IMG/VR virus record: IMGVR_UViG_3300013131_002471
Span: 1 to 39,237 of that record
From: a virus
Length of the DNA stretch: 39,237 nt
Strand: one strand, 5' to 3'
Part shown: positions 6,775-29,241 of the stretch, piece by piece
Numbering within the stretch: the stretch's first letter is position 1
Layout: each line of letters opens with the position of its first letter
Notes under the pieces: generated by a model
Told to the model about the DNA's origin: nothing
The model's database searches: none
What the model saw: only the letters and a program-made list of their open reading frames with translations
Program-made: the position numbers and the translations under genes

Positions 6775-8226
6775 ATGAATTTGAATTTACCTAAGTTACG
6801 AAAAGTAGATCCTAACAAGCCTAAGAAAAAGAAAATTTTATTATTGTCTGATGACATGCGCATGCATAGTGGTATTGCTACTATGTCACGTGAAATTGTC
6901 TTGAACACAGTAAGAGAATTTGATTGGGTTCAATTAGGAGCTGCAATTAAACATCCAGACCAAGGAAAGATTTTTGATCTAAGTGAAGAATCTAAAAAAG
7001 AAGCTGGAGTTGAAGATGCATATGTTAAGCTATATCCGTATAGTGGATACGGAGATCCTAACATCTTAATGCAGTTAATAGAAATAGAAAAGCCAGATGC
7101 GATACTGCATTTTACGGATCCTAGATTTTGGGGATGGCTGTATCAAATGGAACATTCAGTGCGTCAGCATATTCCTATCATGTATTACAATATTTGGGAC
7201 GATTTACCATATCCGCATTGGAATGAATCGTTTTACGAATCATGTGATTTACTAATGAATATCTCAAGACAAACACAGAATATTGTTCTAAATGTTTTAA
7301 AGAAATATCCAAAAGAAGAATGGGCAGTACAATGGGTACCGCATGGTATTAATGAAAAACACATACAGCCTATTACAGAGGAACATCCGTTATATAATGA
7401 ATTCAATGAATTTAAAACTAATTTTAAAACGACTAATAATATTGACTTTGTAATCTTTTGGAATAATAGAAACATTCGTCGTAAACAACCTGGAGATTTA
7501 ATATTAGCATATAACGAGTTTTGTAAATCTTTACCTAAAGAAAAAGCAGAACGATGTGTGTTATTAATGCATACACAACCGGTTGATGATAACGGTACTG
7601 ATCTATACGCTGTTAAAAATGCCGTATGCCCCGATTATAAGATCATTTTCAGTGATCAGCCAATAGACAATAAAATGATGAACTTCTTTTATAATCTAGC
7701 AGATGTAACTGTTAATATAGCTTCTAATGAAGGCTTTGGTTTATCGGGAGCAGAATCTTTAATGGCAGGTACACCTATCATTAATAACGTAACTGGCGGA
7801 TTACAAGATCATTGTCGATTTGAAGATGAGGAAGGTAAATGGATAGAGTTTACTACAGAGTTTCCTACCAATCATGCCGGCCAATATAAGAAACATGGAA
7901 TATGGTCTAAGCCAGTATTCCCAACTAATAGATCATTGCAAGGATCACCTCAGACCCCATATATCTTTGATGACCGAGTTGATTTTAAAGATGTAGCAAA
8001 TGCTATAATGTATTGGTATGAAATGCCAGAGAAGACGCGTGTAGAGTATGGACTTAAAGGACATAAATGGGTTTGTGGTAATGAATCTAATATGTCAGCA
8101 CGTAGAATGGGAGATCGTTTCATTGAATGTATTAATACATGTTTAGAAAAATGGTCACCGAGAAGAAAATTTACTTTATATAAAGTAGAGCAGTCAAACA
8201 AAATAGAAAAGGTAGGAGTGTTATGA
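6775..8226 (+). CDS. GT-B glycosyltransferase (GT4-like)
   Basis: A 483-residue GT-B glycosyltransferase. After an N-terminal tail (LNLPKLRKV, then a lysine-rich stretch) comes ILLLSDDMRMHSGIATMSRE, typical of the N-terminal Rossmann domain. NEGFGLSGAESLMAGTP near residue 318 is the donor-binding E-x7-E region of the GT4 clan. It would transfer a nucleotide-activated sugar to an unknown acceptor. It opens the glycan block, follows an AAGGAAAAG ribosome site, and overlaps the next GT by ATGA. The LPxLxKV-type tail recurs at the C-terminus of the next protein, suggesting a shared docking peptide. Confidence 0.87.
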   Translation: MNLNLPKLRKVDPNKPKKKKILLLSDDMRMHSGIATMSREIVLNTVREFDWVQLGAAIKHPDQGKIFDLSEESKKEAGVEDAYVKLYPYSGYGDPNILMQLIEIEKPDAILHFTDPRFWGWLYQMEHSVRQHIPIMYYNIWDDLPYPHWNESFYESCDLLMNISRQTQNIVLNVLKKYPKEEWAVQWVPHGINEKHIQPITEEHPLYNEFNEFKTNFKTTNNIDFVIFWNNRNIRRKQPGDLILAYNEFCKSLPKEKAERCVLLMHTQPVDDNGTDLYAVKNAVCPDYKIIFSDQPIDNKMMNFFYNLADVTVNIASNEGFGLSGAESLMAGTPIINNVTGGLQDHCRFEDEEGKWIEFTTEFPTNHAGQYKKHGIWSKPVFPTNRSLQGSPQTPYIFDDRVDFKDVANAIMYWYEMPEKTRVEYGLKGHKWVCGNESNMSARRMGDRFIECINTCLEKWSPRRKFTLYKVEQSNKIEKVGVL

Positions 8227-9554
8227 AACCATTTATAGTTATACAAGGACCTGTAGCTACTCGATCGGGCTATGGAAACCATACAAGAGATTTAGTGCTT
8301 AGTCTAATTAAAGCCGATAAGTATGATATACAAGTTATATCTCTACCATGGGGCAATACTCCTATGGATGCATTAAAATCTAATAATCCAGACCATATGG
8401 CTATTTCCAATGTAATAGCCCGACAGCCTATTAATAAACAACCAGATGTATTTATACAAGTGTCAGTACCAAACGAGTTTCAAGCTCCTGGTAAATTTAA
8501 CATAGGAATTACTGCTGGAATAGAAACTAATGCAGTCTCGCCCGAATGGATTGAAGGATGTAATCGCATGAACATGGTTATTACAACATCGGAACATTCT
8601 AAACAAGGTTTTATTAAACCAGTCTATGACGTATTAGATAAAAATACAAATCAAAAAGTAAAAGAACTTCGCTTGGAAAAACCTATCAAAGTTCTATTTG
8701 AAGGGCTTGACACTAACGTGTATAAACAGACTAAAGATATACATGAAACCGTTTTAAACGAACTGTCTGCCATCAAAGATACGTTCTGCTACTTGTTTGT
8801 CGGACATTGGTTAAAAGGAGATTTTGGAGCCGATCGTAAAGACGTTGCCATGACAATAAAAACATTTTGCGAGGCATTTAAAAATAAGTCGCCGCAAAAT
8901 CGTCCGGCATTGATTCTTAAGACTAGTCATGCTACTTTTAGTATAATGGATCGAGATGAAGTTATGAAAAAGATACAAGCTATCATTGCTCCTTATGGTA
9001 AAAATATACCTAACATATATGTACTGCATGGGGACTTGACAGATGAAGAAATGAATAGTTTGTATAATCATCCTAAGGTTAAAGCCATGATATCATTTAC
9101 ACATGGAGAAGGATATGGTAGGCCATTATTAGAATTTTCAGTGACAGGTAAACCTGTTATTGCTCCAAATTGGTCTGGTCATATTGATTTTCTTAAACAT
9201 GCAACATTGTTACCAGGCCAACTAACTAAGATACATCCATCAGCAGCAGATCAGTTTTTGTTAAAAGATACAGAATGGTTTACGGTAGATTATGGTTATG
9301 CTGCAATGGTATTACGTGATTGCGTAGATAACTATAAAACATATTTAGAAAAGGGGAAGCGTCAAGCTTATGTAGCACGTGAAGCCTTCAATTTAGATTT
9401 AATGGCTGATGAGTTTGTGGGTATTATAGATTCCGCATTGTCTTCAGTACCAACACAAGTACAACTTAATCTACCAAAATTAAATAAAGTAGGAGCACTT
9501 AATTCAGAGCCTCCAAAAATAACATTACCAACATTAAAAAAAGTAACAGTATGA
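8223..9554 (+). CDS. GT-B glycosyltransferase (GT4-like)
   Basis: A 443-residue GT-B protein. The N-terminus has a GPVATRSGYGNHTRDL segment like a glycogen-synthase-type nucleotide loop, and HGEGYGRPLLEFSVTGKPVI near residue 293 is the donor-binding motif of GT4 enzymes. The last 32 residues are a flexible tail carrying two copies of an LPxLxKV motif (LNLPKLNKV and ITLPTLKKV), the same motif that begins the preceding protein. The two genes overlap by ATGA and probably act as a pair. Donor and acceptor sugars cannot be deduced. Confidence 0.87.
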   Translation: MKPFIVIQGPVATRSGYGNHTRDLVLSLIKADKYDIQVISLPWGNTPMDALKSNNPDHMAISNVIARQPINKQPDVFIQVSVPNEFQAPGKFNIGITAGIETNAVSPEWIEGCNRMNMVITTSEHSKQGFIKPVYDVLDKNTNQKVKELRLEKPIKVLFEGLDTNVYKQTKDIHETVLNELSAIKDTFCYLFVGHWLKGDFGADRKDVAMTIKTFCEAFKNKSPQNRPALILKTSHATFSIMDRDEVMKKIQAIIAPYGKNIPNIYVLHGDLTDEEMNSLYNHPKVKAMISFTHGEGYGRPLLEFSVTGKPVIAPNWSGHIDFLKHATLLPGQLTKIHPSAADQFLLKDTEWFTVDYGYAAMVLRDCVDNYKTYLEKGKRQAYVAREAFNLDLMADEFVGIIDSALSSVPTQVQLNLPKLNKVGALNSEPPKITLPTLKKVTV

Positions 9555-10063
9555 CAGAAGAATTAAAAGCAGATTATGATGAAATTTCGCCAATTACAGG
9601 TAATCAATGTGTTATTATCGAAGTAGATGAATCATCAAATACTACTAGTTATGTATGCATGGAGTCAGGATACGTATCTAATTCAATGTTTGAAATAGGA
9701 TCAGCAGCGCAATTACAATACCACGAAACAATATCACAACTAATGCGCGATTTATCTAAAGAGGATAATGAACGTAAACTAATGTGGTATCCAGCATTTA
9801 TGCAAACACCTGCGGGAATGTTATATGTAGCTGGTGATACAATGGAGGATGCACATTGGGAAGTAGCTCCAGTAGTGTCAATATCTGAAGAAGATAAAGA
9901 AAAGTACCCAGTACTGGGTAAAGAAGGACGTTTTTACCAATCACGTGCAGCGACAGAATTGGCAGATAAATTTGATAGCCAAGACTTTGAAGCGGCCATG
10001 GGTAAATTGTTTGACTTAACAAATGCATTATATGACGATAAGTTACGCAATAACAGTTTGTAA
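9551..10063 (+). CDS. Conserved phage protein of unknown function
   Basis: A 170-residue acidic protein with no transmembrane segment. It carries CVIIEVDESSNTTSYVC and CMESGYVSN, a pattern I associate with a family of marine-phage hypothetical proteins, then WYPAFMQTPAGMLYVAGD. It lies between two glycosyltransferases, coupled to the first by ATGA, and its 3' end overlaps the next gene by 32 bp. Cysteines at the front might bind metal, but there is no clear ribbon motif. No function is proposed. Confidence 0.7.
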   Translation: MTEELKADYDEISPITGNQCVIIEVDESSNTTSYVCMESGYVSNSMFEIGSAAQLQYHETISQLMRDLSKEDNERKLMWYPAFMQTPAGMLYVAGDTMEDAHWEVAPVVSISEEDKEKYPVLGKEGRFYQSRAATELADKFDSQDFEAAMGKLFDLTNALYDDKLRNNSL

Positions 10064-10661
10064 TGAATTAGAGGAGATTAGGCGATTGCTTGATCTCCTT
10101 CTTTCTTCTAAACGACTGATAGATGAAATTGTTGTGTTAATGGATACGACAAAAGCTAGTGATGAATTAGTATCAACGTTACGACATTATGAAATGCATA
10201 ACATGGATCATCTAACGGTATGGGCGGCAGAGTTTCAAGGACATTTTGCTGATTGGAAAAACAAACTAACATCGTATTGTACGGGTGATTATATTTTTCA
10301 AATTGATGCCGATGAAATGCCATGTACTCCTATAATCGAATCATTACCATTTATTTTAGAATCTAATCCTGAATTAGATGTATTACTAGTCCCTAGAGTA
10401 AATACTGTTGAAGGATTAACACAGGAACATATACAAAAATGGGGATGGGCTGTTAACTCAGAAGGATGGGTAAATTGGCCGGATTGGCAATGGAGAATCT
10501 ATAAAAACTCTCCTGATATTAAATGGATAAACAAAGTACATGAACGGTTAGATGGTTTTAAAACTTATACTAACTTACCAATGGAAGAAGATTATTCTTT
10601 ATATCATCCAAAGACAATAGAAAGACAGGAACGTCAGAACAATTACTATAGTACATTATGA
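10032..10661 (+). CDS. GT2-family glycosyltransferase
   Basis: A 209-residue GT-A fold enzyme. It starts MTISYAITVCNELEEIRRLL, the classical first strand and helix of GT2 enzymes, and has FQIDADEMP with the metal-binding DxD. WINKVHERLDG toward the C-terminus is typical of GT2 proteins whose acceptor site is made of aromatic residues. The start at 10032 is preferred to one 9 bp upstream because it fits the family N-terminus. The gene overlaps the preceding one by 32 bp and the next by ATGA. Confidence 0.85.
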   Translation: MTISYAITVCNELEEIRRLLDLLLSSKRLIDEIVVLMDTTKASDELVSTLRHYEMHNMDHLTVWAAEFQGHFADWKNKLTSYCTGDYIFQIDADEMPCTPIIESLPFILESNPELDVLLVPRVNTVEGLTQEHIQKWGWAVNSEGWVNWPDWQWRIYKNSPDIKWINKVHERLDGFKTYTNLPMEEDYSLYHPKTIERQERQNNYYSTL

Positions 10662-11539
10662 TCAAAATCAAATTATACGAGTTAGATAAACATCGTAACG
10701 AATGTACATTCCGTCCATTTTTATATGCACAAAACAGTTTACGTGAAATTGGAATTGAATTTACAACAGGCGATTCATACGATTTTGCATGGATAGCACA
10801 GGCCAGCTTTCTTAATAAAAAAGTTTCATTAGACCAATCAGTAAACGACGGCTTAGAGTTTCTTTCAAGGATAACTGGCGATTATATGCTAATCGATGGT
10901 CAGGATTCTACTTCGTTAATAGGGTCATATGAAGTATTCAAGCAGTCTAAAGCATTGTTAATGTTAAAAAGTAGCTTGCTTAAAGATCGTAATTTATACA
11001 AACAAGGATGGCAGTTAGGAAGATATTATTGGGGGCCAGGTAATTATAAACTAGATGACTTTGATAGCTATTCCGATCGTATAGTATTGTCAGGTACCAA
11101 TTGGTTAATGACACATTGGGCCGGTATTCAACCGCAATGGCATAATATAACAAATAAATACAATGACGTATCTGCAATGTTTCAATATCCTACAAAGGAT
11201 ATGGTATATGAACATGGATATGAACAAAGTACACATTATGACTGTAATCGTAAAAACGTTATAGATATTATACAAGGCTTGCCATTTAATGTAGCTAAAC
11301 TAAATAATGGCGAGCGAGTACCTATTGAAGAATATTATAGAAGAACTACAGATTCTAAAATAATTTTAGCTCCATATGGTTACGGAGAAATGGCTCCTAG
11401 AGATATTGAAGCTGCTATGTTCGGTTCTATTTTAATTAAGCCTGATATGAGTTACATAGATACGGCGCCAAATATATTTGTACCAGATGAAACATATATT
11501 ACATGTAAGCACGATTTTAGTGATTTACGAGAAAAATAG
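10658..11539 (+). CDS. Glycosyltransferase-like protein, 3' end frameshifted
   Basis: A 293-residue product as read. Near residue 232, SKIILAPYGYGEMAPRDIEAA and FGSILIKPDMS resemble the C-terminal donor site of GT1/exostosin-like glycosyltransferases, where a SKI-APFG-GE--RD-EA pattern precedes IKPDMS. The frame stops at TAG 11537-11539 after GAA AAA. If reading steps back one base in the A5 run (11532-11536), it continues for 47 codons to a TGA at 11677-11679 that overlaps the next start as ATGA, as at many junctions here. The intact protein would have 340 residues. This could be a recent mutation, a sequence error or programmed slippage. Confidence 0.8.
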   Translation: MIKIKLYELDKHRNECTFRPFLYAQNSLREIGIEFTTGDSYDFAWIAQASFLNKKVSLDQSVNDGLEFLSRITGDYMLIDGQDSTSLIGSYEVFKQSKALLMLKSSLLKDRNLYKQGWQLGRYYWGPGNYKLDDFDSYSDRIVLSGTNWLMTHWAGIQPQWHNITNKYNDVSAMFQYPTKDMVYEHGYEQSTHYDCNRKNVIDIIQGLPFNVAKLNNGERVPIEEYYRRTTDSKIILAPYGYGEMAPRDIEAAMFGSILIKPDMSYIDTAPNIFVPDETYITCKHDFSDLREK

Positions 11540-11679
11540 AACTAGTATTAGGAAATTATCAAAATTATCAATATATTATTGACAATGCTAGAAGAAAGAT
11601 TGAAGACGTTATGAATCCTACTAATGTAGCAATTCACTTATATGAAGTTTTTAAAAATTTACAACAAGTTACAGTATGA
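11536..11679 (+). other. Frame -1 continuation of the preceding glycosyltransferase
   Basis: An open stretch of 47 codons in the -1 frame, joined to the upstream gene at the A5 run. It reads IELVLGNYQNYQYIIDNARR, then a helical end that finishes NLQQVTV. The first residues are the natural sequel to DFSDLREK of the upstream frame, since related transferases end with a helix after this point. It has no ribosome site or convincing start codon of its own. Confidence 0.75.
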
Positions 11680-12347
11680 CAAATATCGATAAAATATTTT
11701 GTATTAATTTAGATTCTAGACCAGATCGATGGGACGAGAGTTTAAAAGAGTTTAAAAAGATAGGTATTGAAAATAAAGTAGAGCGTTTTTCAGCTATTAA
11801 TATTCAACCAGGTATTATTGGATGTACTAAATCTCATTATGAATGTATTAAACTAGCAAAAGAATGTGGTTACAATCAAATTCTAATTTTAGAAGATGAT
11901 GTATCTTTTAAAGATGATGCATTAATTATCTTAGATAATACTTTAAAACAACTAAATAAACATGGTATTAAATTTGAATTATTATATTTAGGGGCAAATT
12001 TATATCCTAAAAATAACGTATTGATAGATAGTAACTTAGCTTTATTAAAAGCTGCAAAAACTACACATGCATATGTAATCGACTCTAGTATATTTGATAT
12101 AATTATAGATTATTATAGTACGTGCAATTGGGACGATGGATATGAATGGAACTCTCAAAATCCTGATCGAAAAAATATCGATATTTATTACTTACATTAT
12201 ATACAATCGCGCGGACGTAGTTACGGAGTATATCCTAGTATTGCCGAACAACGTATTAGTTATAGCGATTTGATACATACTACTAACTATTATAATTTAC
12301 ATAATTCATATAATAATATTTTAGAAAATTCAAATGAAAAAAATTAA
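11676..12347 (+). CDS. GT25-family glycosyltransferase
   Basis: A 223-residue protein with the marks of family GT25 (lipooligosaccharide galactosyltransferase type): FCINLDSRPDRW at the N-terminus, GCTKSHYECIKLAKECGY, and ILILEDDVSF holding the acidic metal-binding residues. Members usually transfer galactose or glucose in LPS cores. The start overlaps the preceding frame's stop as ATGA. The gene is richer in A and T than the two GT-B genes at the start of the block. Its 3' end overlaps the next gene by 14 bp. Confidence 0.88.
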   Translation: MTNIDKIFCINLDSRPDRWDESLKEFKKIGIENKVERFSAINIQPGIIGCTKSHYECIKLAKECGYNQILILEDDVSFKDDALIILDNTLKQLNKHGIKFELLYLGANLYPKNNVLIDSNLALLKAAKTTHAYVIDSSIFDIIIDYYSTCNWDDGYEWNSQNPDRKNIDIYYLHYIQSRGRSYGVYPSIAEQRISYSDLIHTTNYYNLHNSYNNILENSNEKN

Positions 12348-13224
12348 ACTTAAATTAAAAGATACCGCACTTACAACTTGTTTTTATAGCGGTAATACGT
12401 CAATGTATCGTACGATTCCGCCTGGCCATACATTTCCTCCCATAATAACCGAATCAAAAATTATGGAATGGGACTGGAACGTGTCTAATAACGAAGAATT
12501 AGTATTTTATACAGACTCGTATATTCCATATCCAGAAGCCGGTCATAAAAAACGTGTAGCATGGTTAATTGAGCCATATTGTAAACAACCTCATCATTAT
12601 GATTGGATTTCTAAAAATAATCATCTATATGATTATGTATTAACATTTGAAAAGTTTTTGTTAGATCGTGGCGAAAATTTTATATACTATCCGTATGGTG
12701 GATGTTGGATAGAACATGAAAATAGGACAATTAATCATGATAAAACAAATTTAGTTTCTATCATAGCGTCTGGTAAACGTAAAGTAGCAGATCATTTTAA
12801 ACGTCATGAGATAATTGCAAAACATTCAAATATCATCGATGTAATGGGTATGGGATACAAGCCAATTGGAGCTATTAGCGAAGGACTAACAAATTATATG
12901 TTTCACATTGCAATGGAAAATCAACGACAAGATTTTTATTTTACAGAAAAATTAATTAATCCATTAATGACAGGCACTGTACCAATATATTACGGAATGC
13001 CTAGTATAGGCGAATATTTTGACACTCGCGGTATGATTATTTTTAATGATATAAATGAAATAGGTAATATATTAAATAGTTTAAATATTGAATTGTATAA
13101 ATCTATGTTACCATACATAGAAGAAAATTTTAAACGAGCGCATCAGTATGTTTTAGCTGAGGATAATTTCTTTGAAAAAATTATGAAACTATTAAATATG
13201 GATAATGTACATGGATCGATTTAA
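12334..13224 (+). CDS. GT10-like fucosyltransferase
   Basis: A 296-residue protein whose C-terminal half carries the alpha-1,3-fucosyltransferase motif: FHIAMEN, then YFTEKLINPLMTGTVPIYYG, then a P-x-I-x-x-YF segment. This is the GDP-binding region of family GT10 (Helicobacter FutA and animal Lewis enzymes). The N-terminal half is less typical, so the acceptor may be unusual. It would move L-fucose or a related 6-deoxy sugar from a GDP donor. No GDP-fucose synthesis genes (gmd, fcl) are seen in the window, so the donor would come from the host or elsewhere in the phage. It overlaps both neighbours. Confidence 0.85.
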   Translation: MKKIKLKLKDTALTTCFYSGNTSMYRTIPPGHTFPPIITESKIMEWDWNVSNNEELVFYTDSYIPYPEAGHKKRVAWLIEPYCKQPHHYDWISKNNHLYDYVLTFEKFLLDRGENFIYYPYGGCWIEHENRTINHDKTNLVSIIASGKRKVADHFKRHEIIAKHSNIIDVMGMGYKPIGAISEGLTNYMFHIAMENQRQDFYFTEKLINPLMTGTVPIYYGMPSIGEYFDTRGMIIFNDINEIGNILNSLNIELYKSMLPYIEENFKRAHQYVLAEDNFFEKIMKLLNMDNVHGSI

Positions 13225-14032
13225 GGAAGATTCACTTAGATTTGGTTATGTAGACGATAATTTAAATTTAGTCGTAACTCATGATTCAGGATTTTTTAGT
13301 TGTTGTACTGTACGATTACGTAAAATTATTTTTTATTATAATAAATACGGTAAAATACCTATAGTGAATTCATCGGCCCAGTGGTCGAAATATAAAGATC
13401 GTGATGAGGATATAACACATATTTTATTTGATACGGCTGATATAGATTTTAAAAATATACATAAAATTAAATTTAGTTTAGATACAAGAGAAGATCAGTT
13501 TAGCGATTACTCAAAAATAAATTTTAATGACATATCATTTTTTATAAAAAAATACTTTAAAGTATCTAATTATATCGATGATATTGAAAAACAAATTCTT
13601 AATAAATACAAAATTGATGTTAATAAAACTATTGCTATATGTTATCGTGGGAGTGATAAACGTACAGAAACTGAAGTGCCTAGCTATGATGAAATGATCG
13701 ATCGTATACATTACATAAAGCGACAGAATCCAGACCATTCTATTTTGCTACAAACAGATGAAATTGAATTTTTAAATACGATACGATCTCATATACCTGA
13801 TATTATATTAATCGATGAAACCTTTAAGGTTACATGTAATAGCAGAGCAGTACAGTTTTATATACCTGCAGGGCAACGACTTACAAATGCTATGATATTT
13901 TTAGCTGTTATGCAAATTTTAAGTAAATGTAATCATGTTATACTTAATAGTGGTAATGTCGGATTGTGGATTTGTTTATTCAGAAATAGTACGTACAATA
14001 TATCACAGTATCTAAATAATACTTGGTTATAA
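13205..14032 (+). CDS. Fucosyltransferase-like protein (NodZ/FUT8 type fold, tentative)
   Basis: A 275-residue protein. IAICYRGSDKRTETEVPSYD near residue 140 recalls the conserved arginine loop (H-R-xD-K) of alpha-1,2/alpha-1,6 and O-fucosyltransferases. It is followed by SILLQTDEIEF, like their FL-TDD strand, and later HVILNSGNVGLWICLFR, like the S--S-FS-lA end of these enzymes. It directly follows the GT10-like gene with a 20-bp overlap. An ATG at 13211 is an alternative start. The fold assignment is by motif pattern and could be wrong; a glycosyltransferase of some kind is likely from context. Confidence 0.55.
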   Translation: MYMDRFKEDSLRFGYVDDNLNLVVTHDSGFFSCCTVRLRKIIFYYNKYGKIPIVNSSAQWSKYKDRDEDITHILFDTADIDFKNIHKIKFSLDTREDQFSDYSKINFNDISFFIKKYFKVSNYIDDIEKQILNKYKIDVNKTIAICYRGSDKRTETEVPSYDEMIDRIHYIKRQNPDHSILLQTDEIEFLNTIRSHIPDIILIDETFKVTCNSRAVQFYIPAGQRLTNAMIFLAVMQILSKCNHVILNSGNVGLWICLFRNSTYNISQYLNNTWL

Positions 14033-14053
14033 TAAAAAAAAGGATAAAAGAAT

Positions 14054-15945: not shown

Positions 15946-15979
15946 AAAAAACTATTAATTATTTTGATACGGCTAATAT

Positions 15980-16771: not shown

Positions 16772-16774
16772 TAT

Positions 16775-21370: not shown

Positions 21371-22172
21371 AAATGTAGTGTTTTGGGTCGGAGTAAAAAG
21401 TAACGATCCAGCTGTTATTGAAAAGCATCAGTACGGCGATTATAACTGGATGGAATATTCACGTAAAACTTGGGAATATTGGGCTAAAAAAAATAATTGT
21501 TATTTCATTGCATATGAAAATACTAAGGAACAAGATTTATTAAAATACAAAGTTAATTGGCAACGTTGGTTTGATGTGTTTGAATACATTGAAAATAGTG
21601 GAATTAATAATTATGATCAAATATTATTAACGGATGCTAGTATTATGGCTAAATGGGATATGCCTAATATATTTAATGATACGGAATATAAGTTTTGTGC
21701 ATTACGCGGAAATGAAAATTTAAAGTGGACATATCAAAGTGTTAATGGATATGCAGATATGTTTCCGGATATATCATTTAGATATAATGATTATTTTGCA
21801 TCTGGCTTTTGCATTTTCAATAAAAAACATAGACAAATATTTGAAGAATTAAAAGATTTTTATTATATTAATCATGATAAGATTTTAAATAAAGAGGATA
21901 TATCAATTAAACGAGGCCGCGACCAACCAGTACTAAATTATTATTTACGTATGAAACACGTTGATATAAAACTATTGCCGATTGTATATGGAGTTAATCA
22001 TTTATATCGACGTGAAGTATTAGTACATAACTGGCAACTTAATAACGATAATACACCATTTTTCATTAAATACTTTTATACATGGATTTTTTCCGGATGG
22101 CCTGATCGCGGCGCAACCAGGAATAATTTAATGAGACAAACATGGGAATTAGTAAAACACAAATACATATGA
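21360..22172 (+). CDS. GT-A glycosyltransferase paralogue with altered DxD
   Basis: A 270-residue paralogue of the preceding protein: NWQRWFDVFEYI, FASGFCIFNKKHRQIF, GRDQPVLNYYL and LLPIVYGVNHL align with its counterpart. The DxD site reads LLTDASIM (Asp92, Ser94), so the second metal-binding Asp is lost. It may be metal-independent, use Asp100 instead, or serve as a non-catalytic partner of its neighbour. The stop overlaps the following start as ATGA. Confidence 0.75.
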   Translation: MENKNVVFWVGVKSNDPAVIEKHQYGDYNWMEYSRKTWEYWAKKNNCYFIAYENTKEQDLLKYKVNWQRWFDVFEYIENSGINNYDQILLTDASIMAKWDMPNIFNDTEYKFCALRGNENLKWTYQSVNGYADMFPDISFRYNDYFASGFCIFNKKHRQIFEELKDFYYINHDKILNKEDISIKRGRDQPVLNYYLRMKHVDIKLLPIVYGVNHLYRREVLVHNWQLNNDNTPFFIKYFYTWIFSGWPDRGATRNNLMRQTWELVKHKYI

Positions 22173-23173
22173 AATTAAAAAACAAATATATTGTAGGCGT
22201 ACATGTAATGTTTTATGAAATAGAAATGTTACCTGAATATATAGATTCATGTATAGGAATGATACAAGGAATTGACAATCCAGAGAATGTTACGTATCAT
22301 TTTACATGGAACATATCCGAACACTTTGAAAGTATTGATACATCTGCTATTTCATTAAGTGAATTAAATAGTCGTTTCTATCAATGTGTCGAACGTATAG
22401 AACGTATAGGATGTAAGTTAATAGTAGATGTAAAAGATAATACATCTAACCCTTATAATATTGCAGATTATCGTCGAGATCTTAATTACAATTATTGTAC
22501 TACATATGATTTTGTATTATGGGGCGAGACTGATAGTTTATGGCCTAAAGAATCTTTACAGATCATTGAAGGTGTGGATCATCAATCTAAGAGCCAAGGA
22601 ATTTTTAAGTATGTTTTATATTTTAGTGATCGTAAGATGTGGGATGCTTCATGGGAAGTTATCGAACATAACGATTTTACAAATGTAAAATTTATTGATG
22701 ACGATGTATGGCCTTTAGAAAATGAAGCTTCAAGTAAATCGTATATGTCATTAGACCGTATGTATGAAATTAATGATAAAGTAGATGACGTAGATATTAG
22801 AATACTACAAACACCTAAGTTCGATGGATCATGTTTAGTAATTAAATCAGACCTTATTAAGTCGGGAGTTAACATACCGCAATCATTGTTATGTTCCGGT
22901 GAAGATACTAGTTTTGCTGATATGGCTAAATTAGTATTAGGCGATCAATTTGTACAGTTTGTAATAAAAAATATACTACATGTACATAACAGAAGGCATC
23001 CTAACAAAAGATTATATATATTAAACGAAAATAATCCACGTGGATTTTGCGGGACAGAAAAAGGAGATTGGTGGCAAGTGTTACAGTCAATGTCAAAACA
23101 AAATTTAATGACATTACGTCATCAATCATCTACATTTACTATGCAAGATGTTATAAATAAAATAAAGGAATAA
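22169..23173 (+). CDS. Putative GT-A glycosyltransferase
   Basis: A 334-residue protein that begins YIVGVHVMFYEIEMLPEYID, a first strand and helix like those of GT2-type enzymes. It has FVLWGETDSLWPKE where those enzymes have their DxD region (E-T-D here). CSGEDTSFADM near residue 250 fits the ED acceptor-side motif, and a histidine-rich NILHVHNRRHPNKR follows. The start at 22169 is preferred over one at 22142 because it makes an ATGA overlap. Function is assigned from these patterns and context. Confidence 0.6.
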   Translation: MKLKNKYIVGVHVMFYEIEMLPEYIDSCIGMIQGIDNPENVTYHFTWNISEHFESIDTSAISLSELNSRFYQCVERIERIGCKLIVDVKDNTSNPYNIADYRRDLNYNYCTTYDFVLWGETDSLWPKESLQIIEGVDHQSKSQGIFKYVLYFSDRKMWDASWEVIEHNDFTNVKFIDDDVWPLENEASSKSYMSLDRMYEINDKVDDVDIRILQTPKFDGSCLVIKSDLIKSGVNIPQSLLCSGEDTSFADMAKLVLGDQFVQFVIKNILHVHNRRHPNKRLYILNENNPRGFCGTEKGDWWQVLQSMSKQNLMTLRHQSSTFTMQDVINKIKE

Positions 23174-23175
23174 TT

Positions 23176-23526
23176 ATGAAAATGCCAATTAGTGAGATTG
23201 CAGATCGTTATTCGATTGCGTTACTTAAAAGAGAACGTGCAGATGCGGATAATCAGTTAGAGATTGATACATTACATGAAGAATTGATTAAATATAAAGG
23301 TACATTAGAATTTGTACTTAATCTTAAAGATGTTAATGGTAGAATATGGGACTTAGAATCTGATATTAGAAAAGGAAAAGAAGCTGAATTAGGATTAGAA
23401 GAGGTAGGTCGTCGTGCAATTGCCATACGCGAATTAAATAAAATACGTGTAGGTTATAAAAACGAAATGGTTAAGATTTACGGCGAAGGGTTTGAAGATA
23501 TTAAAATGAATCATGCAAGTGCATAA
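23176..23526 (+). CDS. Small helical protein, DUF6165-like
   Basis: A 116-residue, charged helical protein. ISEIADRYSIALLKRERA, then LKDVNGRIWDLESDIRKGKE and a late REL-NKIR segment, resemble the DUF6165 family found in capsule and LPS clusters (DR-TIL-IK, L-VN--LW-iED-iR--E). The role of that family is unknown. It starts 2 bp after the preceding gene with AAAGGAATAATT as ribosome site. A regulatory or scaffolding role for glycosyltransferases is possible but unproven. Confidence 0.6.
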   Translation: MKMPISEIADRYSIALLKRERADADNQLEIDTLHEELIKYKGTLEFVLNLKDVNGRIWDLESDIRKGKEAELGLEEVGRRAIAIRELNKIRVGYKNEMVKIYGEGFEDIKMNHASA

Positions 23527-23527
23527 T

Positions 23528-24478
23528 ATGAAAAAAATAGCATGGTTTTCTGAAATGGCGTTTGATGGAAAGACGCCACGTACTCATGATAATATGCGTA
23601 CTGAATTTGCATGGTTTGTAGCACAAGATGCAATACATCATAATATTTTAAAATTACAGTCGTTGCCAGATAATTCATATGATTTAGGAATTCTAATAAT
23701 TCCAAAACATGTTACAAATTTCATGCAGGTTGATATTGTATCACATATTAAACGAGTATGTAAACGATATGCATTTATGCAAGAAGGGCCGTCATGGTAT
23801 TTTCAAGATTTACCTTTAGATCAATCATTATGGTTCTATAATATAATGATACAGTCTGATTTTGTTTTAGCACATAACGATGTAGATAAAAAGTATTATG
23901 AAGGACTACTAGAAAAACCATGTTATATCAATCCAACATTAATGATCGAGGATAATATATCAATTACAGATAGTGTTGAACGTGATGGCATCATTATAGG
24001 CGGTAATTTAGTTAGGTGGTACGGAGGATTTAATTCATTGATAGTAGCACAGATATCAGGTGAGAGAGTATATGCCCCAAGAATGGGACGAATGTCAGAA
24101 TTAGAATTATCTATGGATGACATAACACATTTACCGTATATGAATTGGACAGAATGGATTCATACATTAAATAACTTTAAGTATGCTGTACATCTCAATC
24201 CTAATTCAATTGGAGGTACTTTTAGTTTAAATTGCGCGTATTTAGGAATTCCGTGTATAGGTAATATTAATAGTAACACTCAAAGAATATGTTTTCCGGA
24301 CTTATCAATTGACCCGGATGATATAAAAACAGCAAAACAGTTAATGAAATTACTTTGCAACGATAAAGATTTTTATAATCATTGTAGTAGCAACTCAAAA
24401 CAATTATACAATGAAAATTTTTCAGAATCTAAGTATAAATTAATATGGCAATCAATAATAACAGAATTAAATATATAA
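23528..24478 (+). CDS. GT-B glycosyltransferase-like protein
   Basis: A 316-residue protein. It starts MKKIAWFSEMAFDGKTPRTH, and its C-terminal half has RDGIIIGGNLVRWYGGF and FKYAVHLNPNSIGGTFSLNC, followed by AYLGIPCIGN. This is the arrangement of a GT-B C-terminal domain with a G-GT-S-N-A--G-P-I donor loop. The start at 23528 is chosen over one 15 bp upstream because it follows the preceding stop directly and gives the typical first strand. Donor and acceptor are unknown. Confidence 0.68.
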   Translation: MKKIAWFSEMAFDGKTPRTHDNMRTEFAWFVAQDAIHHNILKLQSLPDNSYDLGILIIPKHVTNFMQVDIVSHIKRVCKRYAFMQEGPSWYFQDLPLDQSLWFYNIMIQSDFVLAHNDVDKKYYEGLLEKPCYINPTLMIEDNISITDSVERDGIIIGGNLVRWYGGFNSLIVAQISGERVYAPRMGRMSELELSMDDITHLPYMNWTEWIHTLNNFKYAVHLNPNSIGGTFSLNCAYLGIPCIGNINSNTQRICFPDLSIDPDDIKTAKQLMKLLCNDKDFYNHCSSNSKQLYNENFSESKYKLIWQSIITELNI

Positions 24479-24482
24479 AACT

Positions 24483-25445
24483 ATGAAAATACTAGTAACA
24501 GGCGGAGCTGGATTTATCGGATCTCATATATGTCATAAACTAATAGAATTAGGATTTTCGGTGAATTGTGTAGATAATCTATCTACTGGTAAAATTGATA
24601 ACATTAAAGATTTAATGTCGACTCCATCATTCAAATTTTATCATGAAGATGTATTGGAGTTAAATGAATATCATGAAGCATGTGACGTGTCTATGATATG
24701 TCATCAGGCAGCGATGGGATCGGTACCAAGATCAGTTGCTCAGCCAGATATCTATCAAAAAAATAATGTAGAAGCATTTTTTCATTTATTAGAAATTGCA
24801 CGTATAAAAAACATAAAAAGATTTGTGTACGCATCGTCATCTTCAGTATACGGTAATAATGAATTTTTACCTAAACAAGAAAATCGTATAGGCGATGCAT
24901 TATCTCCATATGCTGCTACTAAACGTATTAATGAAATATATGCAAAAGTTTATAATCGATGTTACGGAATAGAAACAATTGGATTACGATACTTTAATGT
25001 ATTTGGGCCTAAACAAAATCCATATGGTGATTATGCAGCTGTAATACCTAAGTTTATCACAGCAGTTGGTAATGGACAAGCTCCTATCATTAACGGCGAT
25101 GGCTCATATGGCAGAGACTTTACATATGTGGATAATGCAGTACAAGCTAATATTTTAGCACTAACTACTACTAACCCAGAATGTTTTGGTGAGGAATTTA
25201 ATATCGGCGCCGGTGGTATGACTACTATAAAGCAATTATTTAATTCAATACGTAGTATAATGAAGTCTAAAGTAAAAGTTATATACGGGCCTGTTCGTAT
25301 AGGTGATATACCGATGTCGATAGCTAGCGTAGATAAAGCTAGGAAGTTATTAAAGTATACTCCCGATGTGGATGTAAAAAATGGACTAGAAAAGACAATT
25401 AAGTATTTTCATGAAAATATTAATAACATGACTAACAAGAAATAA
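24483..25445 (+). CDS. NAD-dependent sugar epimerase (GalE/WbpP-like)
   Basis: A 320-residue extended SDR enzyme. KILVTGGAGFIGSHICHKL (2-20) is the GxxGxxG NAD site, YASSSSVYG holds the catalytic Ser region, and SPYAATK holds the Tyr-x-x-x-Lys pair. RYFNVFGPKQNPYGDYAAVIP and GDGSYGRDFTYVDN are typical of UDP-glucose/UDP-GlcNAc 4-epimerases such as WbpP. It would interconvert UDP-hexoses or UDP-HexNAcs to supply the transferases around it. The length is normal for the family. Confidence 0.9.
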   Translation: MKILVTGGAGFIGSHICHKLIELGFSVNCVDNLSTGKIDNIKDLMSTPSFKFYHEDVLELNEYHEACDVSMICHQAAMGSVPRSVAQPDIYQKNNVEAFFHLLEIARIKNIKRFVYASSSSVYGNNEFLPKQENRIGDALSPYAATKRINEIYAKVYNRCYGIETIGLRYFNVFGPKQNPYGDYAAVIPKFITAVGNGQAPIINGDGSYGRDFTYVDNAVQANILALTTTNPECFGEEFNIGAGGMTTIKQLFNSIRSIMKSKVKVIYGPVRIGDIPMSIASVDKARKLLKYTPDVDVKNGLEKTIKYFHENINNMTNKK

Positions 25446-25459
25446 ACTAAAATACTTAT

Positions 25460-26392
25460 ATGAAAAATCAAAAAATTTTTATTACGGGCGGTGCTGGATT
25501 TCTCGGTCGTAGTCTAATTAGACGTTATTATGCCGATAATGAAATTACTATATATAGTCGAGATGAGGCTAAACATTATTATCTTAAAAAAGAATTTCCT
25601 AATATTAATTGTGTAATAGGGGATGTACGAGATTTTGATTTAATGAAACGAGCATCTAAGGGACATGATATAGGCATCTTTGCTGCTTCATTAAAACAGA
25701 TAGAAGCAGTTGATCAAAACATAGAAGAAAGTATACAAACTATCATTAATGGGGCTGTTAATTCGAGACGTGTCGCAGAGGAAAATAATTTTTCAGCTGC
25801 ATGTTTTGTATCGACAGATAAATCTAGAGCGGCTACTACATTGTATGGGGCTATGAAGTTTGTAGCCGGCGAGTCGTTTATTGTCAATGCAGAAAAATCC
25901 AATGTATTATTATCATCAGCTATATATGGTAATGTATTAAATTCTACCGGTAGTGTAATTCCATTAATATGGGATGCTATACGTAAAAAATATAAGTTGA
26001 AATTATATTCTCCGGAGATGACTAGGTTTATGATAACCGCAGACCAAGCTGTCGATTTAATAGAACATGCATTGACATTGACAGGACATAATGTAATACC
26101 AAATGTAAAAGCTTTTAGAATTATAGATTTGTTTGAAATCTATCATGAACAATTCGGATTAGAGTATGAAGTAGGAACTCCTAGAATTTCAGAAAAGATT
26201 CATGAATCTATGTTTTCGTACGAAGAGTCTACAAGAGTAAAAACAGATAATGGTTATTATATTATGCACTATAAAGATGTGTATAATGAAGCATTACCAT
26301 TCACAGATTTTTCTAGTGACAAGGTAGTTGTTAGTAAAGATGAATTAAAAAATATTTTAAATAGTTATGAATATTTTAATCCTAGGTCATAA
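25460..26392 (+). CDS. UDP-sugar dehydratase/epimerase (CapE/PseB-like SDR)
   Basis: A 310-residue SDR protein. IFITGGAGFLGRSLIRRYY is the nucleotide site, FAASLKQIEAVDQNI corresponds to the HAA-LKQVP-x-E--P segment of UDP-GlcNAc 4,6-dehydratases (CapE/WbjB, PseB), and STDKSRAATTLYGAMK contains the Tyr-x-x-x-Lys pair. TRFMITADQAV is also typical. CapE makes the first intermediate on the way to UDP-L-FucNAc. The following RmlD/CapF-like gene fits the second step of that route. It overlaps the next gene by 26 bp. Confidence 0.82.
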   Translation: MKNQKIFITGGAGFLGRSLIRRYYADNEITIYSRDEAKHYYLKKEFPNINCVIGDVRDFDLMKRASKGHDIGIFAASLKQIEAVDQNIEESIQTIINGAVNSRRVAEENNFSAACFVSTDKSRAATTLYGAMKFVAGESFIVNAEKSNVLLSSAIYGNVLNSTGSVIPLIWDAIRKKYKLKLYSPEMTRFMITADQAVDLIEHALTLTGHNVIPNVKAFRIIDLFEIYHEQFGLEYEVGTPRISEKIHESMFSYEESTRVKTDNGYYIMHYKDVYNEALPFTDFSSDKVVVSKDELKNILNSYEYFNPRS

Positions 26393-27086
26393 TGGAATGT
26401 TAGGCCATATGCTAGTAAAATATTTTACTGGTAATGGCTATAATGTTTCTACAATTAACGATAGATTTCCTTCGAAGGAATTTATGTCAGCTATAGAGAA
26501 TTTTTCAGGCGATTTTATTATCAATGCCATAGGAGCAATACCACAAAAGACATCCGACTTCAATGTTAATACAACATTACCAGGCTGGTTAGATAAAAAC
26601 TCAAATGTTAAAATTATTCATCCCGGTACTGATTGTGAAATGGATGATGATGACTATGGATTATCTAAAAAAGCGTCCCGAGATTATATACTACTTCATG
26701 GTAAACGTACAAAAATTATAAAAAGTTCGATAATCGGGCCGGAATTGCGAGATAAAAAAAGTTTACTTGAATGGTTTCTAAATTTAAATAGCTCATCATG
26801 TGATGGATATACACAAGCAATGTGGAATGGCATTACTACTTATGAATGGGCTAAGCAAAGTGAGTTATTAATGAATAACTGGGAGTCATATGATACAGAA
26901 ACTATTATATCAAGTAATTGTATATCTAAATATTTGTTATTACAAACTATTTCCTATATATTTAATAAACATGTTAACATCGTTCCAATAGATAAAGGAA
27001 TTGATAAATGTTTAATGTCAGATATTAAAACGCTTGATATACAAGATCAACTCAAACAATTGAAACAATATTATTATGATAATTGA
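26367..27086 (+). CDS. RmlD/CapF-like sugar reductase (SDR)
   Basis: A 239-residue SDR enzyme, shorter than RmlD (about 290). NILILGHNGMLGHMLVKYF is the RmlD/WbjC-type nucleotide site, and DFIINAIGAI is its fourth strand. The Y-x-x-x-K pair reads YGLSKKASRDY. The pairing with the CapE-like gene just upstream, which it overlaps by 26 bp, suggests successive steps on a UDP-4-keto-6-deoxy sugar, as in UDP-FucNAc synthesis. A third enzyme of that route (CapG-like epimerase) is not evident unless the GalE-like gene serves. Confidence 0.75.
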   Translation: MNILILGHNGMLGHMLVKYFTGNGYNVSTINDRFPSKEFMSAIENFSGDFIINAIGAIPQKTSDFNVNTTLPGWLDKNSNVKIIHPGTDCEMDDDDYGLSKKASRDYILLHGKRTKIIKSSIIGPELRDKKSLLEWFLNLNSSSCDGYTQAMWNGITTYEWAKQSELLMNNWESYDTETIISSNCISKYLLLQTISYIFNKHVNIVPIDKGIDKCLMSDIKTLDIQDQLKQLKQYYYDN

Positions 27087-28011
27087 TGTGTGCCCCGAAT
27101 TTGGATATGAGTTAGCATGTTCAATTCCATATGCCAATTGGTTGCAACAACAAGGGTTATTAGAAAAGGTAGTTACATGTACAGGTATGAAACCTTTTTA
27201 CTATTTCACGGATAATGTTGAAGAACGTTATTCCAATCGTAGTATAGATAACAATACTAACGGCGTACAGAATCTACCAAATTCATGGATACATCATAAT
27301 GCATTAGCATTAACAGGTAGAGATTATTCTGAATTATCGGAATCTGAAAAGTATGAAGTTAACGGATGCTTAGATTATTCAAAATGGATAGCACCTGATT
27401 ATAAAACTAAGTACTATGATGCATCGTTAGAGTTGCCAGATAATTTTGTTGTGATATCAAATCGATATAATTTAGAACACGGTGTTACCCCGGTAGGATA
27501 TTTTGATATAGAATCTTTGTATAACATTATTACATATCTAACCGAAAAAGGATATTCTGTTATATATAAACGGCCGAAAAATACCGAGTTCGCAACTGAT
27601 CCTAATGAATTAGTTAACTTAAATATTACAGCGAATGTCGACGGTGTTGGCGTAATTACCGATTATCAATTAATTGAGATGTTAGATAACGCTTATCTAT
27701 TTGACGATATTATAGAAAGTATACCGGGCACGTACAACGAAGCCCAGTTGAAATTATATTCTAGATCTAACGGATTTATATCAATGGGCGGTGGATCTAG
27801 TATTTTATGTAGTTATTTTAGTATGCCCGTTGTAATTTATGTTAATACATCTGGAGATATACGTCCGGGATATTTTGACGGTGATTCATACTTTAAAAAA
27901 TTATCCAATGCTCCAATACATCCGATCATCGATAAAAAGGATGATATATTAGCACGAGGACATCGAGATTACAGTAAATTATATGAAACAATACACAACG
28001 TATTTAAATAA
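27076..28011 (+). CDS. Putative GT-B-like glycosyltransferase
   Basis: A 311-residue protein. It begins MIIDVCPEFGYELACSIPYANW, which resembles the substrate loop of a GT-B N-domain. In the C-terminal third, SNGFISMGGGSSILCSYFSMPVVIY resembles the donor loop of heptosyltransferase-like proteins that choose nucleotide sugars with a glycine-rich turn. There is no standard E-x7-E motif. It overlaps its predecessor by 11 bp and ends 6 bp before the next transferase. The assignment is tentative. Confidence 0.5.
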   Translation: MIIDVCPEFGYELACSIPYANWLQQQGLLEKVVTCTGMKPFYYFTDNVEERYSNRSIDNNTNGVQNLPNSWIHHNALALTGRDYSELSESEKYEVNGCLDYSKWIAPDYKTKYYDASLELPDNFVVISNRYNLEHGVTPVGYFDIESLYNIITYLTEKGYSVIYKRPKNTEFATDPNELVNLNITANVDGVGVITDYQLIEMLDNAYLFDDIIESIPGTYNEAQLKLYSRSNGFISMGGGSSILCSYFSMPVVIYVNTSGDIRPGYFDGDSYFKKLSNAPIHPIIDKKDDILARGHRDYSKLYETIHNVFK

Positions 28012-28017
28012 ACAAAT

Positions 28018-29241
28018 ATGAAGATATCAATAATACAACCGACAAGAAATAACTTGAAATACCTTAAATGGGCGTATCAAGCAATTAGAGATAATCAAGG
28101 TGACCATATCGTGGAGATATGCGTAGCTGATGATTTTAGTGATGATGGTACATGGGAATGGTGCCAACAAGTACTTGAAGGAGGAGATACTAACTTTAAA
28201 TGTATACGCAATGAAGGACCGGAACGATTAGGACATACTATTTTATATGATAGACTGATCAACGAAGTAGCTAGCTACGATAAATGTATGATCTATCATG
28301 CAGATATGTATCTATGCCCAGGCGCATTAGATGAAATTGAAAAGTACATTCAGCCAAAGACAATTGTATCATTAACAAGAATTGAGCCGCCATTACATCC
28401 GGATGGTCCGGAGAAGGTATTAGCAGATTGGGGAGTTGAGCCTGAAGACTTTAATGAAGGAGAATTTTTGAAATGGTTTTCATTAGCTGATGGATTTAAA
28501 GGAAATACTACAACTGAAGGTATATTTGCTCCATGGGCTTTCATGAAAGCAGATTTTCAAGAGATTGGAGGTCATGATCCATTATATGCTCCGCAAAGTA
28601 AAGAAGATAGTGATATCTTTAATAGATTTCAGTTGAACGGTGTTAAGTTTATACAAACATGGAAAGGATGTGTATATCATATGACCTGCCGTGGTAGTAG
28701 ATTTAATCCTACATTAACTACACCGGGTAAGAATAGTTCCGAATGGGAAGCTCAGAATGTACGCAGTAGTAGAAACTTTATTCGTAAGTGGGGACATTTT
28801 GTACAACATGATGCATTACTCAAACCTATCATACCGCCTAAGTATAATGTAGCATTTATAATGAATAACGGCAATCTTAGTTTATTACAAGCCCTAGAGC
28901 CATGGTGTGATAGAATATATACAGAGGAAGTATTTAGTATAGGTAGGTTGCATGATTATATTGAAATGGAACAGTCTAATACTAAGTTTGATTTACGTAC
29001 ACGAGTACTTATTAAAAAAGAAAACGATCCATATGCAGAAAATGATATAGTAGTTGAATTCGATGCTAATAGATTTACTCAAGGCTCATTTGATATCATA
29101 CAAAATTTATCACATGTGATAGCACAGACAATTAAAGATGTAGATCCGACCGAAGTATGCGGCGAATACAATATTGATTGTTTCAAAATTACAATTCTAC
29201 ATGTAGACACCTATGAACACGAATTAGTAAAATTAAAATAA
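28018..29241 (+). CDS. GT2-family glycosyltransferase
   Basis: A 407-residue protein whose first 230 residues are a GT2 domain: ISIIQPTRNNLKYLKWAYQAI, then CVADDFSDDGTWEW with the nucleotide-binding DDxS-D, and CMIYHADMYLCPGAL as the DxD-type strand. PWAFMKADFQEIGGHDP and SKEDSDIFNRF fit the acceptor strand with the catalytic ED-D. The last 150 residues are a second, unrecognised domain. This is the last gene of the glycan block. Confidence 0.85.
   Translation: MKISIIQPTRNNLKYLKWAYQAIRDNQGDHIVEICVADDFSDDGTWEWCQQVLEGGDTNFKCIRNEGPERLGHTILYDRLINEVASYDKCMIYHADMYLCPGALDEIEKYIQPKTIVSLTRIEPPLHPDGPEKVLADWGVEPEDFNEGEFLKWFSLADGFKGNTTTEGIFAPWAFMKADFQEIGGHDPLYAPQSKEDSDIFNRFQLNGVKFIQTWKGCVYHMTCRGSRFNPTLTTPGKNSSEWEAQNVRSSRNFIRKWGHFVQHDALLKPIIPPKYNVAFIMNNGNLSLLQALEPWCDRIYTEEVFSIGRLHDYIEMEQSNTKFDLRTRVLIKKENDPYAENDIVVEFDANRFTQGSFDIIQNLSHVIAQTIKDVDPTEVCGEYNIDCFKITILHVDTYEHELVKLK

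Follow-up and report, generated by a model that had tools for sequence, protein, structure and literature searches.

What does a T4-like bacterial virus build with an island of transferases and sugar enzymes lodged beside its replication genes, and on what is the product placed? The question is raised by an IMG/VR virus record of 39,237 bases (the window, meaning the whole stretch of DNA that was analysed), which is a fragment of the genome of a large, uncultured T4-like phage, from a group that occurs in lakes and in the sea. Positions 6775-29241 (22 kb) hold 26 genes, all on the + strand, with 99.0% of the block coding and overlaps at 17 of the 25 junctions; the run of some 25 tightly overlapping genes described in a first-pass annotation is therefore real. 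This block is a fixed-site, hypervariable island that follows the pattern of bacterial O-antigen loci. We read it as a glycan-assembly island whose enzymes work in the cytosol, with a phage protein as the likeliest acceptor and a variable sugar coat on the virion as the outcome, and we give this reading a probability of roughly 0.45.

Constant ends and an exchanged centre

With genes named by their first positions, the order exonuclease, 6298, 6775, 8223, (9551), 10023 is kept in dozens of related contigs, content diverging afterwards. The exchange can be followed in G001 (the contig of locus L010), whose clamp loader, GroEL and exonuclease genes are 97-99% identical to those of the window. 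Gene by gene into the island, identity drops through 92, 83, 88 and 80 to 51%. At the nucleotide level, the alignment runs at 88% identity up to 10938 and resumes at 84.5% from 25458 onward, where it spans the dehydratase, the reductase, 27076 and the GT2 transferase of the right end. The intervening 14.5 kb (10938-25458) has no G001 counterpart except one 176-bp stretch, and is replaced there by an unrelated 10.7-kb cassette encoding a radical SAM protein, methyltransferases (one of the TylF type), an epimerase and a protein with weak resemblance to GT2.

The same division is evident across seven islands, delimited by 6775 and 28018 (12.5-22.5 kb, one truncated by a contig end). Their 143 genes fall into 71 families, of which four are present in all seven and 49 in a single island. 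In the window, the G+C content is 0.295 in the centre (minimum 0.274) and 0.34-0.35 in the flanks. Bacterial O-antigen and capsule loci share these constant flanks, the exchanged centre of transferase and sugar-nucleotide genes, the low G+C content and the precursor module described below, but no initiating phosphoglycosyltransferase or flippase family was found for the phage island. The genetics are thus those of a surface antigen, in keeping with the earlier proposal of a glycan on the virion or host surface, the surface location itself being a step beyond what they show. If the reading is right, uncultured T4-like aquatic phages of a widespread group vary their sugar chemistry by cassette exchange, much as bacteria do, and it must be the glycan itself that is under selection, since near-identical replication backbones carry different glycans.

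Two trivial origins were considered and rejected. Dozens of other contigs show this gene arrangement in the same place, which excludes chance or a chimera; the flanks and the module recur jointly in other contigs (for example at L036), and the flanks also in G001. Nor is the window a plain bacterial contig, because its clamp, clamp loader and neighbouring genes are T4-like and syntenic with phage contigs. Since the related contigs may be incomplete, absences in them are provisional throughout.

The genes of the island are as follows.

6775-8226, +: constant GT4/GT-B glycosyltransferase 1 (phrog_2170 'glycosyltransferase', E 2.8e-15; 7/7 islands)
8223-9554, +: constant GT4-like glycosyltransferase 2 (phrog_2170, E 2.6e-18; 7/7 islands)
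9551-10063, +: 170-residue protein, no family match (4/7 islands)
10023-10661, +: constant GT2 glycosyltransferase (PF00535, E 4e-7; 7/7 islands)
10658-11539, +: putative glycosyltransferase, shortened by a frameshift (51% identical to a 338-residue G001 homologue)
11676-12347, +: GT25-family glycosyltransferase, variable cassette (PF01755, E 4.7e-12)
12334-13224, +: GT10, fucosyltransferase-like (PF00852, E 3.1e-9; alpha-1,3-fucosyltransferase 2NZW, E 6e-7)
13205-14032, +: putative transferase, no family match
14054-14635, +: putative methyltransferase (PF13578, Methyltransf_24, E 0.025, sub-threshold)
14628-15416, +: deacetylase-like protein (RHDVE and HVH motifs only)
15370-15945, +: putative methyltransferase (PF13578, Methyltransf_24, E 0.0018, sub-threshold)
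15980-16771, +: phage protein of unknown function (phrog_13607, E 5e-9), frequently adjoining the precursor module
16775-18688, +: fusion of cupin (phosphomannose isomerase type), nucleotidyltransferase and APH-type kinase, 637 residues
18675-19286, +: shikimate-dehydrogenase-like reductase, HI0607 type, with shortened C-terminus
19283-20260, +: protein of the GatZ/KbaZ superfamily, predicted to act as a zinc-dependent ketose C4-epimerase or aldolase
20250-20609, +: HAD phosphatase, 119 residues (HAD-IIIA TIGR01662, E 6e-6, below cut-off; DIDGT and TGR motifs)
20606-21370, +: putative glycosyltransferase, no family match (with its paralogue 21360 in 6/7 islands)
21360-22172, +: putative glycosyltransferase, paralogue of 20606, no family match
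22142-23173, +: putative transferase, no family match (5/7 islands)
23176-23526, +: unknown protein, 116 residues
23513-24478, +: putative glycosyltransferase, no family match (5/7 islands)
24483-25445, +: UDP-GlcNAc 4-epimerase-like short-chain dehydrogenase/reductase (SDR), relative of WbpP/WbgU (1SB8, E 6.8e-77; PF01370, E 1.2e-53)
25460-26392, +: SDR resembling UDP-N-acetylhexosamine (UDP-HexNAc) 4,6-dehydratases (right end, 3/7 islands; 92% identical in G001)
26367-27086, +: RmlD-like reductase, SDR (PF01370/PF04321 weak, below cut-off; GHNGMLG and YGLSK motifs)
27076-28011, +: putative glycosyltransferase (TIGR04372, E 0.06, far below cut-off; 88% identical in G001)
28018-29241, +: constant GT2 glycosyltransferase of the right end (PF00535, E 2.5e-8; 7/7 islands)

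Families passing their Pfam cut-offs in the block include GT2 (twice), GT25, GT10, Epimerase, Polysacc_synt_2, NTP_transferase, MannoseP_isomer and Shikimate_dh_N. The dozen or so transferases first proposed are accordingly confirmed in part, GT2, GT25 and GT10 by Pfam and the GT4-like pair through phrog_2170; the total was counted by resemblance rather than by test, since eight proteins (10658, 13205, 15980, 20606, 21360, 22142, 23513 and 27076) have no Pfam match above cut-off. Two proposed methyltransferases reach Methyltransf_24 only below threshold, and the suggested deacetylase lacks Pfam support. All three of the expected SDR sugar enzymes were recovered, with GxxGxxG and YxxxK retained in each; 25460 matches the PseB model (E 1e-49, below its equivalog cut-off) and is related to 4TQG, 2GN4 and CapE. 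A weak sequence match links 11676 to procollagen galactosyltransferase 1. Relative to the G001 homologue, the remainder of 10658 sits in a different frame at 11540-11675, and the frameshift may be an assembly error or a natural mutation.

The GT4 assignment of 6775 and 8223 falls below the Pfam cut-off. The AlphaFold2 model of 6775 (mean predicted local distance difference test score, pLDDT, 90.7) has the complete GT-B/GT4 enzyme fold. A short peptide, xLPKLxKV, is shared by the two proteins. Of 48 distinct homologues of 6775, 25 have it at the N-terminus (LPKLRKV in the window, 6775-6810); near the C-terminus of 8223 it takes the form LPxLxKV (two copies; window 9460-9554), where at least one copy is found in 42 of 44 homologues and two in 36 of 44. 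Scans of the open reading frames of four relatives (G001, G003, G008 and G011) found LPKLxKV nowhere else save for chance-like variants, shuffled sequences giving 0.05-0.25 per genome. The peptide may be a docking peptide or a relic of duplication.

The precursor module and its GatZ-like protein

Inside the island centre, genes 16775-20609 form a module of four: the fusion protein, the HI0607-type protein, the GatZ-like protein and the HAD phosphatase. The claim that the block carries its own precursor enzymes is borne out, the AroE-like 18675, the GatZ-like 19283 and the HAD protein 20250 adding to those listed before. What had been called an activating fusion enzyme is present, and in fact has three parts: a cupin (PF01050, E 2e-7), a nucleotidyltransferase (PF00483, E 9e-9) and an APH-type kinase (PF01636, E 0.003, below cut-off). 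Its translation contains the nucleoside triphosphate signature GIGSRLKNLTKNINKA and the kinase loop HGDLQFDN, and it scores 38.6 bits against the HddC model (cut-off 300). The next gene product, 18675, is classed by sequence as an HI0607-type shikimate-dehydrogenase-like protein: 1NPY is the best of 38 in its profile comparison (E 1.4e-38), the catalytic K68 and D104 are invariant among five homologues, and the MPFK, NTD and GNGG motifs are present. Against the NCBIfam shikimate 5-dehydrogenase NF009202 it scores 131 bits, below the equivalog cut-off of 306, and the wider family also takes in the 5-ketofructose reductase 7COK.

The AlphaFold2 model of 19283 (pLDDT 94.4) finds its best fold match in E. 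coli GatZ (2FIQ; Z 30.7, root-mean-square deviation 2.6 over 318 residues), followed by 3TXV (Z 29.6), tagatose 4-epimerase (26.0) and the fructuronate-tagaturonate epimerase UxaE (25.4). A profile built from phage and distant bacterial members of the family matches 2FIQ at E 3.3e-13. In E. coli, GatZ and KbaZ make tagatose-6-phosphate from fructose-6-phosphate, and the proposed GatZ site has zinc on His88, Glu171 and His257 with Asp87 as the base (PMC11907403). D70, H71, E136 and H208 of 19283 align to GatZ D87, H88, E171 and H257 (2FIQ residues counted along the alignment); among 16 proteins, the histidine and aspartate residues of the site are invariant and E136 nearly so. A GatZ-type metal site is thus retained. 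The phage protein has the fold and the zinc-binding and catalytic residues of the E. coli C4-epimerases (PMC11907403), but differs in its 14% identity, in being about 100 residues shorter, and in having Asn230, invariant in its family, at the position of Lys279, the lysine that takes the place of the aldolase residue in the GatZ/KbaZ epimerases. It gave no match to GatZ_KbaZ-like PF08013 at E 0.1, whereas distant relatives at about 30% identity exceed that family's cut-off (L187, E 2e-15; L172, E 1e-6), and 19283 is therefore classed as a relative of GatZ rather than as a member of PF08013. The best prediction is C4-epimerisation by retro-aldol and aldol steps, or a plain aldol reaction.

A GatZ-like gene occurs in 57 viral loci, on contigs of up to 336 kb, and has beside it the fusion or its split form in 56, the HAD gene in 50 and the AroE-like (HI0607-like) gene in 21. 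A second form of the module, without the HI0607-like gene, has a separate cupin, a 515-residue nucleotidyltransferase-kinase, a pair of thiamine-diphosphate enzyme genes and a methyltransferase; in one example, L103, the phage-borne halves of the thiamine-diphosphate enzyme (E1 alpha-like and transketolase pyrimidine-domain-like) lie at 6978-8117. All four module genes are also carried by a Flavobacteriaceae genome, where they adjoin a UDP-glucose-dehydrogenase-like gene and follow, at a distance of a few genes, two proteins with several membrane spans that stand where a polysaccharide initiator and exporter would be; the region looks like a surface-polysaccharide locus. More distant versions (cupin, nucleotidyltransferase-kinase, methyltransferase and HAD) are found in Pelagibacteraceae, Actinomycetota and Bacteriovoracaceae. 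The possibility that the fusion is a common flavobacterial gene was rejected: the full fusion is present in one of 299 sampled genomes of that family, the seed genome itself, and is therefore commoner in the phages examined than in the family. Two marine Bacteroidetes genomes (L147 and L150) have a GatZ-like gene without module partners, amid unrelated chromosomal genes. L160 (G023:C22), binned in an alphaproteobacterial metagenome-assembled genome, has many homologues of island genes and probably derives from a phage.

The GDP/ADP-heptose pathway consists of an isomerase, a kinase, a phosphatase and a nucleotidyltransferase. The module is predicted to provide these four kinds of activity as well, with a cupin or GatZ-like protein for GmhA, an APH-type rather than GHMP-type kinase, and three activities fused. 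By analogy with heptose activation, the product should be one unusual sugar activated as a nucleoside diphosphate (NDP) derivative; we know of no route to which it can be assigned. A phosphocholine- or phosphonate-type pathway was considered and set aside, as the matches of the nucleotidyltransferase to LicC (1JYK, E 8e-6) and to a phosphonate enzyme (6PD1, E 6e-5) are weak and cover part of the domain. A literature search found no paper on the GatZ/HI0607/fusion module, which does not disprove that one exists. The module constitutes a testable pathway, its four genes being kept together in many phages and one flavobacterial genome, and offers hints of function for two orphan-like families, the HI0607-type reductases and the short GatZ-like proteins.

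Acceptors and competing explanations

In kind, the island is a phage 'LPS'-type glycan cluster (named for lipopolysaccharide, LPS), with many transferases and sugar-nucleotide enzymes in a T4-like genome, and such clusters are already known. P-SSM2 has 24 LPS genes and S-SSM7 large clusters (PMC2984593, PMC3037559), jumbo cyanophages have sugar-production clusters (PMC7824862), and pelagimyophages have many glycosyltransferases in hypervariable islands (PMC7029224). To say that the block far exceeds known phages would be an overstatement in the light of these examples (PMC2984593, PMC7029224, PMC7824862); as first noted, its gene content does go far beyond the needs of T4 DNA glucosylation or of serotype conversion of the Gtr type. 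The cyanophage clusters likewise combine many transferases with epimerase, cupin and nucleotidyltransferase genes (PMC2984593, PMC3037559, PMC7824862), and the cupin part of 16775 matches their loci at 30-41%. They use PfkB-type kinases and HIGH-type nucleotidyltransferases (PMC7824862), in contrast to the APH-type kinase and PF00483 nucleotidyltransferase fused to the cupin here. They also lie at a different site, near hli03, phoH and tRNAs; the GatZ-like and HI0607-type enzymes, and the exchange of cassettes between near-identical backbones, set the island apart. The host-recognition cluster of pelagimyophages is also hypervariable and rich in glycosyltransferases, in T4-like aquatic phages (PMC7029224), but lies among virion genes with tail fibres, whereas the island is next to the genes for the clamp, the clamp loader and an exonuclease, with no tail-fibre gene recognised inside it. 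What appears to be new is thus the site beside replication genes, the clean cassette exchange and the GatZ/HI0607/fusion module.

The block proteins are predicted to be soluble. On a simple 19-residue hydrophobicity scale (not a dedicated predictor), 140 of the 143 proteins of the islands lack any hydrophobic window and the other three have a single one; no membrane segments are predicted for the block, and at most one hydrophobic window per block protein leaves no counterpart of the GtrA flippase or polytopic Gtr transferase of serotype conversion. The flippase PF01943 and the WbaP-type initiator PF02397, which mark Wzx/Wzy O-antigen and capsule loci, were found in none of nine related contigs, with controls matched in 13 of 14 and nine of 14 genomes. 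Within the reach of these searches, both results argue against conversion of the Gtr type as well as de novo export by way of Wzx, and the sequences favour cytosolic assembly of an oligosaccharide. The remaining acceptors are a phage protein, DNA, and a host lipid A-core or lipid-linked glycan.

Among these, a virion protein is modestly favoured over host LPS by analogy, because chloroviruses provide a working example of viral enzymes that glycosylate a capsid protein. There, a conserved core glycan bears virus-specific decorations, all made by virus-encoded soluble transferases (PMC5408694), although the chloroviruses are eukaryotic viruses with scattered transferase genes and a proven acceptor, the major capsid protein (PMC5408694), rather than a predicted one. 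The closest fold to 6775 is in fact that of chlorovirus B736L (3OY2, Z 32.9), but this match is no more than suggestive: other GT4 enzymes are tied with it, scoring to about 1 Z unit of the same value, and for B736L itself the acceptor is unknown (PMC9614988). Several further points weigh against a virion acceptor. The island is not next to virion genes, those for gp18, gp20 and gp23 lying tens of kb from it in G008, G003 and G011. Transferases of the LPS core are likewise soluble. A bacterial homologue of the module in a surface-polysaccharide locus suits modification of the host surface equally well.

Such remodelling of the host is quite possible, and is the standing proposal for the LPS clusters of cyanophages and pelagimyophages (PMC2984593, PMC7029224, PMC7824862). 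Working from the cytosolic side, the soluble transferases would lengthen a host lipid A-core or a lipid-linked oligosaccharide, the host's flippase would export it, and other phages or grazers would be blocked from attaching during infection; cassette exchange fits phage-phage competition, and the homology of the module to a flavobacterial polysaccharide locus fits as well. The absence of initiator and flippase families from the nine related contigs speaks against it, as does the need, within one lytic cycle, to rely wholly on the host for export. DNA is an improbable acceptor. T-even phages do glucosylate hydroxymethylcytosine, sugars on modified bases could evade restriction, and PF00303 (dCMP hydroxymethylase/thymidylate synthase) is present in six of 18 contigs, where it may be thymidylate synthase; the window is itself a fragment. 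T4-type modification is unlikely because the other 12 contigs lack PF00303, including the 153-kb island-bearing G003; moreover, a dozen transferases, the SDRs and the module far exceed known DNA glycosylation. A search for TET/JBP enzymes gave no match, but neither did its control, so the result carries no weight.

The co-occurrence of methyltransferases, a reductase and sugar enzymes recalls the making of a decorated small molecule or of a soluble secondary metabolite, of the kind proposed for the second cluster of jumbo cyanophages (PMC7824862), but that is very unlikely here, as glycosyltransferases dominate and family searches of the block recognised no carbamoyltransferase, halogenase or peptide-forming enzyme. 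Least probable of all is that the block is mostly non-functional or decaying 'stuffer' DNA from hosts, an idea raised for cyanophage LPS genes (PMC3037559). The frameshift in 10658 and the AT-richer centre would suit it; the 99% coding density and the intact catalytic motifs do not, nor does the fact that dozens of divergent phages have retained the constant genes and a module of several linked genes.

For assembly in the cytosol onto a phage protein, the enzyme order, activated product and acceptor that we propose are these. A core would be built by the four constant enzymes, a left-end trio of two GT4-type transferases and one GT2 plus the right-end GT2, with the help of the right-end genes 25460-27076 where these are kept, and the exchangeable centre would add phage-specific sugars, methyl groups and caps. 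Judging from their WbpP/WbgU and 4,6-dehydratase relatives, the three SDRs should supply UDP-GalNAc-type and 6-deoxy-HexNAc donors. In the module, the GatZ-like enzyme would change a ketose phosphate at C4, or make one by aldol addition; the oxidation or isomeric state would be adjusted by the HI0607-type reductase and the cupin, and one phosphate taken off by the HAD protein. Activation to an NDP-sugar would fall to the fusion, through its kinase and nucleotidyltransferase parts. The transferases would then join the oligosaccharide to the phage protein, and the virion would leave with a variable sugar coat. Conceivably, though this bolder version is rather doubtful, the island is a phage counterpart of an O-serotype locus, coating the virion with a phage-specific glycan that soluble enzymes build on a phage protein, and including a phage-enriched, undescribed NDP-sugar pathway for an unknown sugar.

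Phage backbone and minor observations

The left end of the window carries these genes, identified by sequence and synteny:

723: sliding-clamp-like gene
1444: dUTPase-like gene
1900: clamp loader
2840-4453: complete GroEL chaperonin
5393: exonuclease-like gene

The clamp loader is about 39-47% identical to those of its nearest named relatives (a 484-kb uncultured phage, Pelagibacter phage HTVC008M and cyanophages) and up to 97% identical in dozens of uncultured contigs; a DNA search found no named phage with near-identical sequence to the window. Among viruses, searches with the GatZ-like protein returned only one unannotated marine virus (44%) and records labelled as Listeria phage (27%). Its nearest bacterial homologues, at 53-61%, are in marine Bacteroidetes genomes, which suggests a host in the Bacteroidota.

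Right of the island, the phage encodes an Fe/Mn superoxide dismutase (31888-32559; PF02777, E 1.4e-31). Transfer-messenger RNA was seen in relatives, as a permuted match in G003 (L246:7801-7967) and a standard one in G008 (L238:7488-7861). Within a tRNA cluster of the window, at 35358-35771 (+), is a full-length match to the GOLLD RNA model (RF02032; 264.9 bits, E 1.5e-74), an RNA of unknown function that forms nanocages (PMC12286853), and G001 has it too (L228:5887-6301, 263.9 bits).

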